A DNA stretch of 64,000 nt from Nitrosopumilus piranensis (GCF_000875775.1 NZ_CP010868.1:1437707-1501706), one strand, 5' to 3'. Shown: positions 4,098-13,863, counted from the first letter of the stretch. Numbers and translations: made by a program. Notes: generated by a model from the sequence alone, not told the origin.

Positions 4098-4172
4098 GCT
4101 CCTATAGTGTAGTCCGGTTAAGCATACAGCCCTCTCAAGGCTGTGACCCGGGTTCAAATCCCGGTGGGAGCA
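4098..4172 (+). tRNA. tRNA-Glu (CTC anticodon)
   Basis: Complete cloverleaf: acceptor GCTCCTA pairs with TGGGAGC; anticodon stem CAGCC/GGCTG encloses loop CTCTCAA with anticodon CTC; T arm CCGGG-TTCAAAT-CCCGG; discriminator A. CCA is not encoded. A tyrosine recombinase starts 45 nt downstream, so this gene is a plausible integration target. Confidence 0.93.
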
Positions 4173-4216: not shown

Positions 4217-5557
4217 ATGTCAAAACAGCAGATTTCAGGCTCCAAACAAGACAAGATAAGAATATACGATTATGACAAAATTATCACACGAACTTTTGCA
4301 TTAATGGAAAAGGACCTCAGTGACAACAATGTAAGGGTTATCAAAAAATTTGACCGCGTCTTGGTAAATGAATCATTATCAGATGCAAGACGCTCAAAGA
4401 TTCTTGGAACAATACTTTCACTTTCAAGAATGCTAAACAAGGATTGGGAAGATACCAATAAAGAAGACATTGAAGAATTGGTGTACAACTTTAACAAGAA
4501 ATTCAGCAAGAGTGGTCAGGAAACCAATACCACTGCAGACCACAAAAAAATTCTAAAAAATTTCTACAGATGGTTAAAGCGTGGTTCAAGGGACCAAAAA
4601 CAAGTAGGAGACCCAACTGAAACTTCATGGATTAGAGTCAAGAAACCCAGAGAAAATCTTACTGCAGATATGTTAATCACAGAAGTAGAAAAAAATTCTT
4701 TGCTCAAGGCATGCGGAAGTAATCTCAGAGACAGGGCATTTGTTCATACATTTTCAGATTTAGCTTGCAGACCAGGAGAAATATTGAGTCGGCAGATAAA
4801 GCATGTAAAGTTTGATGACAAAGGAGCTGTAATCGTAGTTGATGGGAAGACAGGTCCAAGACCAGTAAGAGTAATTGAATGTGTGCCAGACTTGGCATCA
4901 TACTTTGACAAACATCCAAACAGTTCTGATCCGGAGGCACCATTATGGATTGCAATGGATGAAAAGAAATTTGGAAAGCCCTGGTCATATGCTGCAATGA
5001 GAAAAAGACTGCAAAGAATTTGTGATATTGCTCAAATTCACAAGAGAGTATGGCCAAATCTATTCCGCCACACAGGAGCTACAAAAACAGGAATGTTTCT
5101 TACAGAGTCCTTACAAAAGAAGAGGTATGGGTGGTCATCAGGCTCCAAGATGCCAGACAGATATGAACACATGATGAACTCAGATGTAGAGGAAGCAATT
5201 TTCAAGCATTATGGAATTTCAAATAACAAAAACGATGACATCGTAAGCAGACCAAAAATGTGTCACATTTGCAATATTTCAAATTCTCATGATGCAAAGA
5301 TCTGTTCAAAATGTGGAAAACCACTAAGTTTGGAGGCTTCAATAGAAAAAGAAGAACAAGAAAAGAAAGAAAGAGAGCAGTTTGAAGAGAAGATCAAACA
5401 AGTTGACGAATTGTTAGAAAAACAAAAAGAACTAACAGTTACAAGACTTCAGGAAGAATTCTTTGCAAGAAAGATGCAGAAAGATTATCAAAAGATACAA
5501 GATGAGATGATTACGATGCGAGCAGAGCTAAATGCATTCAGAAAAGACAAAAAATAA
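4217..5557 (+). CDS. Tyrosine recombinase/integrase with C-terminal zinc ribbon and coiled coil
   Basis: 446 residues. The N-terminal SAM-like core-binding domain (about 20-130) is followed by a catalytic domain. Arg185 lies in A-C-R-P-G-E-I-L. The box usually read H-x-x-R-H appears as N-L-F-R-H (Asn281, Arg284, His285), and the nucleophile is probably Tyr316 in D-R-Y-E-H. A C-x-x-C...C-x-x-C zinc ribbon (about 350-373) and a long charged coiled coil follow. This layout occurs in archaeal chromosomal and element-borne recombinases. It lies directly behind tRNA-Glu, the classic position of an integrase next to its attachment site. The missing first His is unusual but not necessarily inactivating. 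Confidence 0.85.
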   Translation: MSKQQISGSKQDKIRIYDYDKIITRTFALMEKDLSDNNVRVIKKFDRVLVNESLSDARRSKILGTILSLSRMLNKDWEDTNKEDIEELVYNFNKKFSKSGQETNTTADHKKILKNFYRWLKRGSRDQKQVGDPTETSWIRVKKPRENLTADMLITEVEKNSLLKACGSNLRDRAFVHTFSDLACRPGEILSRQIKHVKFDDKGAVIVVDGKTGPRPVRVIECVPDLASYFDKHPNSSDPEAPLWIAMDEKKFGKPWSYAAMRKRLQRICDIAQIHKRVWPNLFRHTGATKTGMFLTESLQKKRYGWSSGSKMPDRYEHMMNSDVEEAIFKHYGISNNKNDDIVSRPKMCHICNISNSHDAKICSKCGKPLSLEASIEKEEQEKKEREQFEEKIKQVDELLEKQKELTVTRLQEEFFARKMQKDYQKIQDEMITMRAELNAFRKDKK

Positions 5558-8461: not shown

Positions 8462-9259
8462 ATGAAAATTTCAGACGATGCAAGCAATTTCAAGGCAAGC
8501 GTAAAGAGCGCAGATCCCGATAGTGCAAAAAAAATTACCGACATATTGTACCAGATGGTCGAAGACAAGAAAATAGAATCATTTAAGATAAGAAGAGTCA
8601 CAAAAGGGGCCAATTCCATCGACCTTTCCCCGTTAGTACCGCTAACAGATTACGTAGACATTGAATCTCTGTACCATCAAATCAAAGATTCGGAAATAGC
8701 AGTGTTGGGTTCAGGATTGCTTGCACTTGGAATTGCCAAAAAAATACTCTCCATAGTAAAAGACGGGATAGAGATTGCTGAAAAAATCAAAGGAAAGAAA
8801 TCCATGTTTGGGGTGAACTGCAGAATTGATGAGCAGTCCGTGGTAAAGTACGGCAGAAGCTTTGGTGTAAAGCCTTTTGACACCATACTGACATCAGCAA
8901 CTCCAAAAAACATGGAAAAGATGTTTTTGAAGGAACGTAGGTGGGGGGAAATCAAAATTGCTTTTGAAAAGTATTACACCATACAATACATTGCAATGTT
9001 TGTCAAGCATCCTGTTGCAGCGATAACGCACATGGGAGAGGTTGACCACATAGAATACAATCCAGAAACAGGAAAATCAACATTGATTTTGAAAGGCTCG
9101 CCAAAGAAACTCAAAAAGGAAATCCCATATGATCCAAAATGGGAGCACCACAATGCACACGGAACAGTGTACACAACCAAATCAAGAATTGACACTGCAG
9201 ATACGCTGGCAGATGTCTATCCGTCATTAGACTACAGAAGAAAGAGAAAAATCCATTAG
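8462..9259 (+). CDS. Hypothetical protein upstream of Vsr, possible PUA/EVE-like C-terminal module
   Basis: 265 residues, no signal peptide. A central amphipathic helix region (about 75-105, A-L-G-I-A-K-K-I) precedes a C-terminal domain with Y-I-A-M-F-V-K-H-P-V-A-A-I-T-H, then strands and K-K-L-K-K-E-I-P. The C-terminal pattern loosely recalls PUA/ASCH/EVE-type folds that often accompany restriction systems; this is inference only. It lies 35 nt upstream of vsr in the same direction and is visibly richer in G+C than most of the window, as are vsr and the methyltransferase gene. Confidence 0.55.
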   Translation: MKISDDASNFKASVKSADPDSAKKITDILYQMVEDKKIESFKIRRVTKGANSIDLSPLVPLTDYVDIESLYHQIKDSEIAVLGSGLLALGIAKKILSIVKDGIEIAEKIKGKKSMFGVNCRIDEQSVVKYGRSFGVKPFDTILTSATPKNMEKMFLKERRWGEIKIAFEKYYTIQYIAMFVKHPVAAITHMGEVDHIEYNPETGKSTLILKGSPKKLKKEIPYDPKWEHHNAHGTVYTTKSRIDTADTLADVYPSLDYRRKRKIH

Positions 9260-9294: not shown

Positions 9295-9696
9295 TTGCCA
9301 GACAAGTTCTCAAAGCAAACACGAAGTCGCATAATGTCATCAATCAGGTCGAAGAACACAAAACCAGAACTGCAAGTAAGAAAACTTGTGTGGGCACTTG
9401 GCAAGAGATTCAGGATTCATGACAGGACAGTTTTTGGAACACCTGACATCTCAAACAAGTCTAAGAGAGTTGCAGTGTTCATTGACGGATGCTTCTGGCA
9501 CGGATGCCCAAGATGCTATTCTGAGCCAAAGTCAAACACTGAATTCTGGAGAAACAAGATTGCAAGAAACAGGGACAGGCGAAAGAAGGTAAAATCAGAG
9601 CTTAGAAAAGAGGGCTGGACTGTCATGGAGTTCTGGGAGCATGCAGTAAGAAAGGAGCCTATTCCAATCGCAATTTCTATCTCAGAGAAAATTTGA
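9295..9696 (+). CDS. vsr: Very-short-patch repair endonuclease (Vsr)
   Basis: 133 residues starting at TTG 9295. The family hallmarks are all present and even numbered as in the E. coli enzyme: R-S-x-I-M-S-x-I-R-S-K-x-T-K-P-E-L with Glu25, G-T-P-D-I with Asp51, and F-I-D-G-C-F-W-H-G-C-P with His69 and zinc-binding cysteines. Vsr nicks DNA beside T:G mismatches made by deamination of 5-methylcytosine and is normally paired with a C5-cytosine methyltransferase, as here. Length is typical, and the gene appears intact. Confidence 0.93.
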   Translation: MPDKFSKQTRSRIMSSIRSKNTKPELQVRKLVWALGKRFRIHDRTVFGTPDISNKSKRVAVFIDGCFWHGCPRCYSEPKSNTEFWRNKIARNRDRRKKVKSELRKEGWTVMEFWEHAVRKEPIPIAISISEKI

Positions 9697-9789
9697 GCCT
9701 GGATGAAAAAATTTGGTAAAACTTGTCTGATAATTTGATCGCCATCGATCAACCTGGACGCTTAACCTGGAATTTTTTCCAACAAAACA

Positions 9790-10797
9790 ATGAGCCCTCC
9801 AGTAAGGTTTGACTTCTCAAAGCCGGGAAAGACCAAATTCACGTTCAGCGATATATGCGCCGGAATCGGGGGAATGCGAATGGCATTTGAGAACCTTGGC
9901 GGCAAATGTGTCTTTACTTCTGAATGGGACAGGTTCTGCCAAGAGACATACCGTGAAAACTTTGGCGAGACTCCGCATGGAGACATTACAAAAATTCCAA
10001 TCCGAGACATTCCAAGACACGATGTAATGCTTGCAGGATTTCCGTGCCAGCCATTCTCAAAGAGCGGTTTTGCGACAAGGAAGTTTCTCAACAAGAAGGA
10101 CGGTTTTGCAGATGACACACAGGGGAAAATATTTTTCAGGATTGCAAAAATAATTGCAGCAAAAAAACCAAAGGCAATATTTTTGGAAAACGTTCCGCGA
10201 CTGGTAAAGATGAACAAGGGAAAGACTTTCGAGATTATAATTAATGAAATTGAAAAGTTAGGATATAATTGCAAATGGAAAGTAATCAGTGCAGAAACGG
10301 TAGTTCCGCAAAGAAGGGAACGGCTCTATATTGTTGCGACAAGAAAAGGGATAGAGTTTGAGTTTCCGGAAATTCCCGACCTGAAACCGCAGCTTAAACA
10401 AATCCTTGAGAGAAGAGTTGACAAAAAATATGTTCTTTCAGACAACACGTGGCAATGGCTGCAGGACCATGCAAAAAAGCACTCTTCAATGGGAAACGGT
10501 TTTGGTTTCAGGATGGCAGATCCGAAAAAGACTGCATGCACATTAAGTGCAAGATACGGCAAGGACGGCTCAGAGATACTTATTCCCAGAAGAAACGGGA
10601 ACCCAAGAAAGCTCTCCCCAAGGGAATGCGCAAGGCTGATGGGATTTCCTGACAACTTTGCGATCCCGGTATCGGACACCCAGGCCTACAAGCAGTTTGG
10701 GAATTCTGTGGCGGTCCCGGTAATTTATCTAATTGGTTATTCATTTATCAAAAAAATCACAAACATGCCATTTCCAAAAATCTTTCAAAGTACGTGA
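9790..10797 (+). CDS. dcm: DNA (cytosine-5-)-methyltransferase
   Basis: 335 residues with the ordered motifs of C5 methylases: motif I C-A-G-I-G-G-M-R (about 23-30, SAM binding), motif IV G-F-P-C-Q-P-F-S with catalytic Cys86, motif VI E-N-V, motif VIII Q-R-R-E-R-L-Y-I-V and motif X G-N-S-V. The target-recognition region (about 190-270) is short; the recognition site cannot be deduced. It is the natural partner of the Vsr gene 93 nt upstream. No type II endonuclease is recognisable beside it, so it may be orphan or work with the downstream MORC-like ATPase. It is markedly more G+C-rich than the gene that follows. Confidence 0.94.
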   Translation: MSPPVRFDFSKPGKTKFTFSDICAGIGGMRMAFENLGGKCVFTSEWDRFCQETYRENFGETPHGDITKIPIRDIPRHDVMLAGFPCQPFSKSGFATRKFLNKKDGFADDTQGKIFFRIAKIIAAKKPKAIFLENVPRLVKMNKGKTFEIIINEIEKLGYNCKWKVISAETVVPQRRERLYIVATRKGIEFEFPEIPDLKPQLKQILERRVDKKYVLSDNTWQWLQDHAKKHSSMGNGFGFRMADPKKTACTLSARYGKDGSEILIPRRNGNPRKLSPRECARLMGFPDNFAIPVSDTQAYKQFGNSVAVPVIYLIGYSFIKKITNMPFPKIFQST

Positions 10798-10800
10798 TGA

Positions 10801-10810
10801 GTTTAAAAGT
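10801..10810 (+). promoter_or_regulatory. TATA-like box GTTTAAAAGT
   Basis: Lies 22-31 nt upstream of the TTG start at 10832, the spacing expected for a leaderless archaeal transcript. It supports TTG 10832 as start and an independent promoter for the ATPase/response-regulator pair. Confidence 0.5.
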
Positions 10811-10831
10811 CACAGCTACCAAGTGAGCTAA

Positions 10832-13051
10832 TTGAGCAAAAATCCCGCCTCAGAGGAAGAAAAAATTGAAGAGAATGAGCCTGAAGACACTATCAAGTTC
10901 AAGATCAGTAGTAAAGTTGCAAGACTGTTGGGAAGAGAATCCGTGTCAAGTGATACCGCGGCTCTTTTTGAACTTATCAAGAATAGCTATGATGCAGATG
11001 CTTCAAAAGTTACGGTAACATTTAAAGAAATACTAAATAAAAATCCTGAAAGAAGAACAATAATCATTGAAGATGATGGAGTTGGAATCTCGTTCAAAGA
11101 ATTTGAAAAGAAATGGATGGTTATTGGAACTTATTCAAAAGAAAAGGAAACATTTACAACAAATGGAAGACGTATGCTTGGGAATAAAGGAGTTGGTCGT
11201 TTTGCAACAGAAAAGCTTGCAAAAAAATTAACTTTAATTTCAAAACCACAAAAATCCAAAGAGAAAATTCAATTAGATGTGGATTGGGGAAGTTATGAAA
11301 ATGAAGAAATTGAATTTAATCAAGTACCAAATAAAATTCATGTGGAAGAAGAAAGAAATGATGGCGAACATGGTCTAAGAATTGTTTTATCCAATTTACG
11401 AACTGAGTGGAATACAAAAAAACTTACACGATTACTTGATGCAATAGGTTCTATTTTAATTCCAAAAGAGCTCCAAAGAACAAGAGATGATACATTTGAT
11501 GTACAAATAATTGCTCCTGAATTTGAAACAAAAATTAAACCAACAGCTGAAAGCGTATTGTTAGAAACTGCACCTTATGTTGTTACATGCAATATGCCAT
11601 CAGATACTTTCAAAACCAGTGTTACGATTAAAAAAGAAGGAAATGTTGTTGCAAGCCCTGAATTAGATTTTGCAAAAACTCCTATCAAAAAAACAGGGCA
11701 ACAATGGAAACCATTTGGCCCTTGTACTGTTAAACTGTATTTTTATCCTATGAAATCAGCATTTGAAACGTGGGATAGTTATTACAGAGATACGATGAAG
11801 ACTGTAAACATTAGAAAAATTCTAAAAGATTATCACGGAGTAAAAATTTACAGAGATGGTTTTTGGGTAAGTCCATACGGCGGGTTAGAAAATGATTGGT
11901 TGGAGCTAGAAGCGGAGAGGGTTCAAGCAAACATGAAGATAGGAAATACCCAAATAATTGGATTTGTGGAGATTTCCAAAGATAAGAATTCAAACATCAC
12001 AGATACTACCACTAGAGAAAAATTAGTTGAGAATGATGCATTTCATTCCATGCGTCATTTTGTTAAATCAGTGATAGATGAATTGAGCGAATACCGAATT
12101 CAAGAATACAAAGATTTTAGAGAACAGCAGCCAAAAAAAATCTATAAAAATATTCTTGATTCGGAAATTCAAAGGCTGTTGAGTTATTTAGAAACAGAGT
12201 CAGACATTCCTGAAAATATTAAAAAAAATATTGTTAAACATGCACAAACGATTGATGCCAATATAAAAAATCTAACCAAAGTGACCTCCTCAGAAACAAA
12301 AAGAACTGAAATTGAAACAAGAGGTTTGTTAAATTTAGCTTCATTAGGAATACTTTCTGCAAATTCATACCATGAGATCTTTAACATTATCGGAAATATG
12401 AAAGAAACACCCACTGCCATCAAAACTCTGTTGTTTGAAAAATCAGACATAGACGATGTAGTGAATTCATTTCTCATTGAACTTGATGAACAATTAGAAT
12501 TGATTGATCAATTTACATGGTTAGTACGACAATTTGTTAAAGCGATAGGAAATGATGTTGAGTCAAAACTATCAAAAGAAGAAATTCCGTTAGAAGAATT
12601 GGTATCAAAAATGATGAATAGCTATACAACTTCAACTGCAAAGAATGTTGTTCCAGAAATTATTGTGACTCCAAACGATTTTACTGTCACAATGTACAAG
12701 TCAGACATCATTTCAATAGTTTTGAATTTGCTTACAAATGCCATAAAATCAGTAGATTTAGACGAAGATGATGAAAAGAAAATCAAAATAACTATCAATA
12801 AAGAAGCATATGATCTGATATTGTTGTTTAGTGATAACGGTATAGGGATACAAGAAGGAATCATGCCCAAGATATTTAGGCCCTTTTTTTCAACTTACGA
12901 AAATGGAACAGGAATGGGTTTATCAATAGTGCAAGAAATTCTTGAGTCATATGAAGGCAAGATTTCCTTAGAACCAAAACCTGAATTTGAAAAAGGGGCA
13001 TCATTTAAAATCACCATACCTTTGAAAAATTTGAGGAGTGAGAAAGAATGA
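10832..13051 (+). CDS. Double-GHKL ATPase: MORC-like N-terminus fused to a histidine-kinase-like C-terminus
   Basis: 739 residues, no membrane segment. The N-terminal GHKL module has N box A-L-F-E-L-I-K-N-S-Y-D-A-D-A (Asn51), D-D-G-V-G-I (81-86) and N-K-G-V-G-R-F-A (about 110), as in MutL/Hsp90/paraMORC ATPases. A middle domain of about 250 residues follows. Around His514 the sequence L-A-S-L-G-I-L-S-A-N-S-Y-H-E-I resembles a HisKA dimerization/phosphoacceptor helix. A second GHKL module closes the protein with N box L-N-L-L-T-N-A-I (about 632), D-N-G-I-G-I (668) and G-T-G-M-G-L (692). The response regulator gene overlaps its stop by 4 nt. The neighbourhood (Dcm, Vsr) matches that of prokaryotic MORC-like proteins in modification-based defence loci. 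Roles are inferred. Confidence 0.85.
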   Translation: MSKNPASEEEKIEENEPEDTIKFKISSKVARLLGRESVSSDTAALFELIKNSYDADASKVTVTFKEILNKNPERRTIIIEDDGVGISFKEFEKKWMVIGTYSKEKETFTTNGRRMLGNKGVGRFATEKLAKKLTLISKPQKSKEKIQLDVDWGSYENEEIEFNQVPNKIHVEEERNDGEHGLRIVLSNLRTEWNTKKLTRLLDAIGSILIPKELQRTRDDTFDVQIIAPEFETKIKPTAESVLLETAPYVVTCNMPSDTFKTSVTIKKEGNVVASPELDFAKTPIKKTGQQWKPFGPCTVKLYFYPMKSAFETWDSYYRDTMKTVNIRKILKDYHGVKIYRDGFWVSPYGGLENDWLELEAERVQANMKIGNTQIIGFVEISKDKNSNITDTTTREKLVENDAFHSMRHFVKSVIDELSEYRIQEYKDFREQQPKKIYKNILDSEIQRLLSYLETESDIPENIKKNIVKHAQTIDANIKNLTKVTSSETKRTEIETRGLLNLASLGILSANSYHEIFNIIGNMKETPTAIKTLLFEKSDIDDVVNSFLIELDEQLELIDQFTWLVRQFVKAIGNDVESKLSKEEIPLEELVSKMMNSYTTSTAKNVVPEIIVTPNDFTVTMYKSDIISIVLNLLTNAIKSVDLDEDDEKKIKITINKEAYDLILLFSDNGIGIQEGIMPKIFRPFFSTYENGTGMGLSIVQEILESYEGKISLEPKPEFEKGASFKITIPLKNLRSEKE

Positions 13052-13647
13052 CAAAAAAAATGCTCATAATAGATAATGATACAAGCCTTCTCACAAAACT
13101 CAAAATTAACATTAAAGATTTTGATGTAGAAATAACTACAACAATTGATGAAAGCATCGAGATTATAGAAAACGGAGGTTTTTCATTTATAGTGGCAGAC
13201 ATAAAATTAGATAAAGGAAAATTAGGCTATCATGTGTTTGATAAATTATTTTTTAAAGGAAGATATGTACCGGGAATAGTAATAACCGCCTACGAATTAA
13301 CAGACGGCCAAGAAGAAGAATTAAAAAAAATCGGAGTTGAAAAACTTGAAAAGATTGGCGCTAAAGGAACTCTGTCAAGTAGAATTCAATCACACGCAAA
13401 TGAAATTTTGGCAGACAGACAAAAAAAATATGCAGGAATTTTTAACAAAATTTCGGAGTATGAATTGGAAAATTCTAATGCGTTACATGATGGACAAACA
13501 AAGACCATTAGTTCATGGATGAAAATTGTGTTGGACGGAATGTTATCCATAGAAGATGAAGAAAAAATAATAGATTCAGTTACAAAAGTTTGTAATGTGT
13601 TGATTAAAAGGGATGATTCAAAAGATTATGATTTTCCACAAATATAG
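13048..13647 (+). CDS. Response regulator receiver protein with helical C-terminal domain
   Basis: 199 residues. Receiver residues are all present: acidic pair Asp9/Asp11, phospho-acceptor Asp51 in V-A-D-I-K, Thr80 in V-I-T-A-Y and Lys106 in G-A-K-G. The C-terminal 80 residues are helical and contain no recognisable DNA-binding motif, so the output may be protein-protein. Its ATG overlaps the kinase-like gene (ATGA), which makes it the likely phosphorylation partner of His514. Start at 13048 is fixed by the overlap. Confidence 0.85.
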   Translation: MTKKMLIIDNDTSLLTKLKINIKDFDVEITTTIDESIEIIENGGFSFIVADIKLDKGKLGYHVFDKLFFKGRYVPGIVITAYELTDGQEEELKKIGVEKLEKIGAKGTLSSRIQSHANEILADRQKKYAGIFNKISEYELENSNALHDGQTKTISSWMKIVLDGMLSIEDEEKIIDSVTKVCNVLIKRDDSKDYDFPQI

Positions 13648-13665: not shown

Positions 13666-13863
13666 TCATAGTATAAAATCCATAATCTTTTCAGGTGGAA
13701 TTTGACCATAACTTTTCTTCAACTCATCAATTGTATGCCATCCTCCAACCTCTGCAATAACACCATAATTGTAATTTGTTTTAGATAGCCAGTAATGAGC
13801 ACCCAAATGTCGCAGAACATGTGAAGGACGAGTCAGGAAATATGTTTCATTTTTTCCTAAATA
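13666..13863 (-). pseudogene. C-terminal remnant of a second tyrosine recombinase
   Basis: An open frame of about 65 codons with no start codon ends at 13666. It reads P-S-H-V-L-R-H-L-G-A-H-Y-W-L, then V-G-G-W-H-T-I-D-E-L-K-K-S-Y-G. This is the H-x-x-R...W-H...Y end of a tyrosine recombinase, with His, Arg, Trp/His and the nucleophile Tyr in correct order. Upstream the frame is closed by an in-frame TAA and the rest of the gene is absent. It is not a copy of the intact recombinase at 4217. It sits immediately beyond the methylase/MORC/response-regulator block, as if marking a former element end. Confidence 0.7.

Follow-up and report, generated by a model that had tools for sequence, protein, structure and literature searches.

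The window analysed here is a 64,000-nucleotide stretch of the complete 1.71-Mb genome of Nitrosopumilus piranensis, by its genes and relatives an ammonia-oxidiser. It contains four consecutive plus-strand genes encoding a Vsr-type endonuclease, a C5-cytosine DNA methylase, a protein with two GHKL ATPase domains and a response-regulator protein (Table 1), in the order and at the exact positions given by an initial annotation made from the sequence alone. The intergenic gaps are 93 bp between vsr and the methylase gene and 34 bp between the methylase and kinase genes, and the kinase and receiver reading frames overlap by 4 bases. An integrase gene follows tRNA-Glu and an integrase remnant lies at the other end, which gives the region the look of an integration site used more than once. 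A search for an att repeat to pair with tRNA-Glu found none, and a short tRNA-Glu match at tRNA-Gly (63767) was rejected as an att site, being the shared T-arm. Immediately before vsr, a plus-strand gene (8462-9259) encodes a 265-aa protein without a family match. We looked in the cassette for further nucleases, a cognate Type II restriction endonuclease included, and found Vsr alone.

Table 1. Features of the window and of related loci (survey loci carry the prefix L, genomes the prefix G)
Feature	Location	Strand	Support or remarks
tRNA-Glu(CTC), probable integration target upstream of the region	4098..4172	+	
Tyrosine recombinase/integrase, C-terminal zinc ribbon	4217..5557	+	XerA-like, E 1.2e-14
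vsr, very-short-patch-repair-type endonuclease, 133 aa, TTG start	9295..9696	+	PF03852/TIGR00632; PDB 1cw0; orthologue in G611
C5-cytosine DNA methylase, Dcm/HhaI-like, 335 aa	9790..10797	+	PF00145; PDB 3lx6/3me5; orthologue in G022
Double-GHKL protein, 739 aa: MORC-like ATPase head and histidine kinase	10832..13051	+	Profiles, conserved residues, AlphaFold model
N-terminal GHKL and S5-like transducer module, aa ~22-395	10895..12016	+	MORC3 5ix2 match; invariant residues
Long helical linker and DHp, aa 402-577, candidate phospho-acceptor His514	12035..12562	+	Model; His conservation
Kinase-type catalytic ATPase domain, aa 621-732	12692..13027	+	PF02518; ThkA/HK853 fold match
Response-regulator protein: receiver aa 1-~110 (Asp51) and ~85-aa helical tail	13048..13647	+	Profile, model
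Tyrosine-recombinase C-terminus remnant, degraded, directly downstream of receiver gene	13667..13860	-	Frame ...SHVLRHLGAHYWLSKTNYNYGVIAEVGGWHTIDELKKSYGQIPPEKIMDFIL*
His-Gly/Cys family (A9), unnamed, ~200 aa, invariant His-Gly and Cys	L042:8743-9348, L043:8717-9316, L044, L051, L066, L070, L074, L045		After C5 methylase, kinase and receiver
WHLDRH family (A10), unnamed, ~250 aa, WHLDRH...HPxYHFQFGG...PRIxHPPMD	L067, L075, L079, L083, L085, L087, L092-L096, L098, L101, L112		Third gene
Kinase-less head genes	L039:5968-7689, L048:5977-7674, L047:2204-3865		Beside C5 methylase; Vsr in L039 and L048

The four proteins

Both upstream genes encode clear members of known enzyme families. The Vsr protein matches PF03852 (E 5.5e-29) and TIGR00632 (145 bits, over the cut-off), aligns with PDB entry 1cw0 (E 7.8e-20) and keeps the catalytic and mismatch-recognition motifs of E. 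coli Vsr, PD and GCFWH, the latter of which contains the mismatch-intercalating residues in the E. coli enzyme. Its TTG start is plausible, since the orthologue begins MPDKFSRETRS, and so is that of the kinase gene. The methylase matches PF00145 (E 8.6e-87), and its best PDB chains are the Dcm-like 3lx6 and 3me5; as the similarity runs through the target-recognition region, a CCWGG-like site is a reasonable guess for its target.

The initial annotation read the third gene as a MORC-like ATPase with a second ATPase of histidine-kinase type, and both profiles and predicted folds bear out a MORC-like head with a genuine histidine-kinase half. HATPase_c_3 matches residues 42-160 (5e-23) and HATPase_c residues 625-732 (2.9e-29). 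In an AlphaFold model built from 53 homologues (mean pLDDT 83), residues 10-428 have as their best PDB match the MORC3 ATPase-CW cassette 5ix2 (Z 22.3, rmsd 4.4 over 296 residues), with weaker matches to MORC4 (Z 20.0), MORC2 (Z 19.2), SMCHD1 and Hsp90. Residues 509-733 match the histidine kinase HK853, which has been solved with its response regulator, and also ThkA, the catalytic domains with Z about 21; the long helical stretch in the model connects the two halves. The ATP-binding residues of the head (E47, N51, D81, G83, G85, K119 and G120) are invariant in 84 homologues. The candidate His514 (codon CAT, 12371-12373), followed by Glu515, is shared by all of the first 11 homologues and by 82 of the wider set of 84. 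The two proteins that lack it, from a Pacearchaeota (L039) and a Micrarchaeota (L048) genome, lack the entire kinase half.

The receiver protein matches Response_reg below the gathering score (E 9.7e-5, 22.9 bits), and its model is a clear, canonical receiver fold (Z 17.7) with the helical tail modelled at lower confidence. The gene overlap and Asp51 (codon 13198-13200) had been pointed out at the outset. The aspartate recurs in 10 of the first 10 homologues and in 74 of 76 downstream partners, and we likewise found no recognisable DNA-binding output domain. The DHp histidine, N and G boxes, receiver aspartate and adjacent genes together conform to a histidine kinase/response regulator pair.

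The four genes probably represent at least two joined modules, to judge from a split in GC3 (0.47 for vsr and 0.46 for the methylase gene against 0.24 for the kinase and 0.23 for the receiver) and from the different partners found in two other genomes. In G022 the methylase is 84% identical, the kinase just 42%, and there is no linked vsr; in G611 Vsr (64%), kinase (45%) and receiver (39%) are related and the methylase is not (25%). The vsr and methylase genes are alike in composition both in the window and in G611. It might then be supposed that an ordinary Dcm/Vsr pair landed by chance next to an unrelated kinase-receiver pair, at a hotspot of integration, an account that draws on the GC3 contrast and on the nearby integrase, tRNA-Glu and integrase remnant. 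We consider it very improbable as an explanation of the locus: G022 has methylase, kinase and receiver in the same order, and nearly all of the loci surveyed below have it with other methylases, so that chance adjacency of methylase and relay is already unlikely.

Conserved core and variable partners

The survey covered 80 genomic loci, 80 viral contigs and 12 archaeal genomes. The genomic loci came from one profile-guided scan, were selected on kinase similarity alone and span Bacteroidota, Pseudomonadota, Bacillota, Actinomycetota, Chloroflexota, Planctomycetota, Verrucomicrobiota, Acidobacteriota, archaea and others. A C5 or N6 methylase lies within five genes of the kinase in 44 of the 51 genome loci with full flanks, and some modification enzyme in 46 when a DndC-like PAPS reductase, assigned by eye and by the PAPS_reduct tally, is counted in two (L079 and L087). 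The next gene matches the receiver profile in 42 of the 51, and five further loci (L035, L042, L044, L051 and L066) have an aligned receiver with the aspartate. Relatives also occur on at least 80 IMG/VR contigs and are carried on many plasmids; in the 57 full viral loci, a methylase is found 51 times and a same-strand downstream gene within 60 bp every time. The distribution in archaea is patchy, the head being present in 12 of 398 Thermoproteota genomes, and every head-bearing neighbourhood that was read includes a nearby methylase of C5 or N4/N6 type, mostly adjacent. Within the genus, four of 95 genomes have the related C5 methylase and three of those four carry an intact double-GHKL gene; in all three genomes with the intact gene this methylase lies within 5 kb, against one of the 92 others (p 2.9e-5). 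The near-constant core is thus a modification enzyme, the MORC-kinase and the receiver, and the genes downstream are clade-specific.

The initial annotation had named, as outcomes that would count against its proposal, homologues found mostly without methylase or Vsr, or a receiver gene not conserved as neighbour. The high co-occurrence of methylase and receiver speaks for these two partners. Vsr fared differently: it is present at 6 of 51 genome loci and 14 of 57 viral loci, and on the kinase tree it changes 11 times, no more clustered than shuffled labels. Vsr as a constant effector was rejected on this scattered distribution. A narrower possibility is that Vsr serves as the nuclease effector and that the relay licenses it to nick unmodified DNA, in a restriction-like manner. 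The window cassette has no other nuclease, and in G611 Vsr appears to have stayed with the relay while the methylase differs. We nonetheless find this account improbable, since no vsr is linked to the methylase, kinase and receiver genes of G022, and since Vsr accompanies C5 methylases, as mismatch repair predicts, resembles the methylase gene in composition and retains its GCFWH motif.

The types of third gene follow the kinase phylogeny, with two changes on the kinase tree for HNH, one for the peptidase-like His-Gly/Cys family and four for the WHLDRH family, all far below shuffled labels. The His-Gly/Cys family is possibly a caspase-like peptidase. All 20 of its PDB matches are caspases, and all are weak (best E 0.14); two members scanned singly had no Pfam match, and a profile comparison gave nothing significant against seven Peptidase_C14 members, one of which was read on the wrong strand. 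The link to caspases, drawn from these weak matches and from the invariant His-Gly and Cys, is only suggestive. The WHLDRH profile had no PDB match and the member scanned no Pfam match. Single downstream cases comprise an MBL-fold hydrolase (L104), an AbiV HEPN protein (L097) and, at L169, a trypsin-like peptidase just under the curated cut-off (E 2.5e-5). No gene for a dedicated effector accompanies the window pair, its close relatives L022 and L023, or the rest of the archaeal clade that was read.

Variation is also seen upstream of the kinase. At L079 and L087 the DndC-like PAPS reductase, a ~1075-aa protein and an FSGHE-type ~292-aa protein stand in place of the methylase, and this replacement by a PAPS-reductase cluster suggests a phosphorothioation-type mark. 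L050, L078 and L097 have a 544-residue protein (HerA-like helicase by the upstream-gene tally) and a ~360-aa gene between C5 methylase and kinase.

Relation to described systems

The arrangement had been taken for an undescribed one. This was mistaken, as its bacterial branch was reported in 2021 (Bellieny-Rabelo et al., PMC8011034). In that study, a bacterial protein with HATPase_c_3, HEF_HK and HATPase_c domains had a Response_reg_2 gene as its partner in 91.6% of 644 regions, C5 methylases and Vsr were noted nearby, and a relation to paraMORCs was drawn. The systems were proposed as signalling that controls restriction-modification (R-M) systems; the account is restricted to bacteria and does not put forward a downstream effector switch (PMC8011034).

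Like the window, HEF_HK (PF19191)/Response_reg_2 (PF19192) systems combine HATPase_c_3, a DHp histidine and HATPase_c with an adjacent receiver gene, a C5 methylase upstream and, in some, Vsr. They differ in size, with a kinase of about 1000 aa and a receiver of about 600 against 739 and 199 aa in the archaeal window. The window kinase and receiver do not match PF19191 or PF19192 at E<=1, and PF19192 matches two of 76 homologous receivers. PF19191 itself was found in none of 19 survey genomes and in four of 148 genomes of the order of the Pantoea locus, three of them over the cut-off. The genuine PF19191 proteins at L119-L121 match the window-family profile over nearly the full length of that profile (E about 1e-80). 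Each is immediately preceded by a C5 methylase and followed, where the receiver would be expected, by a ~600-aa gene. Given this full-length homology in the same gene order, the window pair is, by sequence comparison, a divergent archaeal variant of the HEF_HK superfamily. In the literature outside subscription papers we found no later functional study of PF19191/PF19192 or of paraMORCs.

The MORC and paraMORC proteins of R-M systems (Iyer et al. 2008, PMC2292703) share with the window an N-terminal module of GHKL and S5-like domains, an association with methylase and Vsr genes, and occurrence in archaea and bacteria. The window protein has the GHKL domain followed by an S5-like domain and, in the model, a MORC-like fold. 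However, paraMORC operons typically include SF2 helicases and endonucleases (PMC2292703), whereas the window head is fused to a histidine kinase and partnered by a receiver; the flanking genes scanned contain no helicase, as had been noted from the start, and Vsr is the only endonuclease.

The match of PADLOC defence models to the kinase is confined to the ATPase head known from Type II restriction enzymes. Those of the BbrUII/HgiDII type have a homologous N-terminal head (window residues 22-201, NF050001), but their restriction C-terminus is missing from the window protein, which has a kinase in its place. Detocs comprises a TPR-bearing sensor kinase and an effector gene, and is not known to include a DNA-modification gene. 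The window shares with it the logic of kinase, receiver and effector (review PMC11249213); here, however, the head is MORC-like and there is no downstream effector gene, and Detocs is absent from archaeal genomes (PMC11249213).

A proposed modification-gated phosphorelay

We propose that the kinase-receiver pair represents, in archaea, a widespread type of modification-gated phosphorelay whose role is most likely in immunity or DNA surveillance, and we place the probability of this reading at about one half. It draws on a MORC and a histidine-kinase fold modelled in one chain, on conserved phospho-acceptor residues and ATP boxes, on the recurrent modification enzyme and on the exchange of downstream genes between clades. 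Relatives accompany DNA-modifying enzymes across many bacterial and archaeal phyla and occur on viral contigs, which makes such a role probable; for the window pair we infer DNA sensing, phosphotransfer, a self/non-self logic and defence. The methylase would mark self DNA, and the MORC-like head may act as an ATP-driven clamp that engages DNA and reads its modification state or a consequence of that state. Clamp closure could be relayed through the helical linker to the DHp and catalytic half, leading to autophosphorylation on His514; Asp51 of the receiver encoded by the overlapping gene would then take over the phosphate, and the helical tail of the receiver would switch the output. Other clades probably use a dedicated downstream gene for this output, such as an HNH nuclease, a possible caspase-like peptidase, an MBL-fold hydrolase or a member of the WHLDRH family. 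In the window clade, which has no dedicated output gene, Vsr or the methylase would be the local candidates.

A constant sensor, an exchangeable output and carriage on viral contigs and plasmids point to conflict biology behind the relay. Against an immune role stand the missing neighbouring effector of the window pair and its close relatives, the restriction of the PADLOC matches to the ATPase head, and the different composition of vsr-methylase and kinase-receiver. The same gene order would also be expected if the pair regulated methylase expression. It may be that a two-component system senses methylation or DNA state and tunes the expression or activity of the neighbouring methylase, as epigenetic signalling and not immunity. 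This would be in keeping with the proposal of signalling over R-M systems (PMC8011034), with a clade that has no dedicated effector and with the ability of receiver proteins to work by protein contact. We regard it as unlikely, though, because the receiver has no recognisable DNA-binding domain and because variable nuclease- or peptidase-like downstream genes and viral-contig carriage suit defence better. Nor do we give much credence to a selfish addiction module, in which loss of the methylase would make the relay trigger a toxic output. R-M systems can behave in this way (discussed in PMC8011034) and the genes are mobile, but no toxin was identified in the window clade, and this account, too, seems very improbable.

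Returning to the immune or surveillance relay, the sister clade of the archaeal kinases (clade support 86) is informative about its head. It consists of L039, L048 and L047, which have the same MORC-like head and no kinase. The head proteins of L039 and L048, two of the three members, end in a DUF4145 domain, which belongs to the HEPN superfamily (PMC3710099). With the kinase half replaced by a DUF4145 tail, the head can apparently drive a different output directly.

It is tempting to speculate, at a confidence just short of even, that these loci belong to a general class of prokaryotic immunity. A modification enzyme would define self, a MORC clamp fused to a histidine kinase would read the DNA, and the receiver would trigger one of several exchangeable effectors, be it a nuclease, a peptidase-like protein or another kind; an archaeal branch would work without a dedicated effector gene, and in a sister branch an HEPN-like tail would take the place of the kinase. 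If so, restriction-modification would sometimes be run through a phosphorelay, and the modification state of DNA could be read out as a His-Asp signal whose outputs are exchangeable. The prokaryotic MORC would gain a testable readout, kinase activity reporting clamp closure on DNA, with a bearing on what MORC ATPases sense, those of eukaryotes included. Moreover, a two-component immune system would be added to archaea.

GHKL genes of other archaea in the same family have other surroundings. At L171 (2495-5902 and 698-2491, minus strand) the neighbours are a helicase and an MrfA-type Zn-binding protein, and at L025 (9548-16686, minus strand) two proteins of >1100 aa; these arrangements are perhaps DISARM-like.
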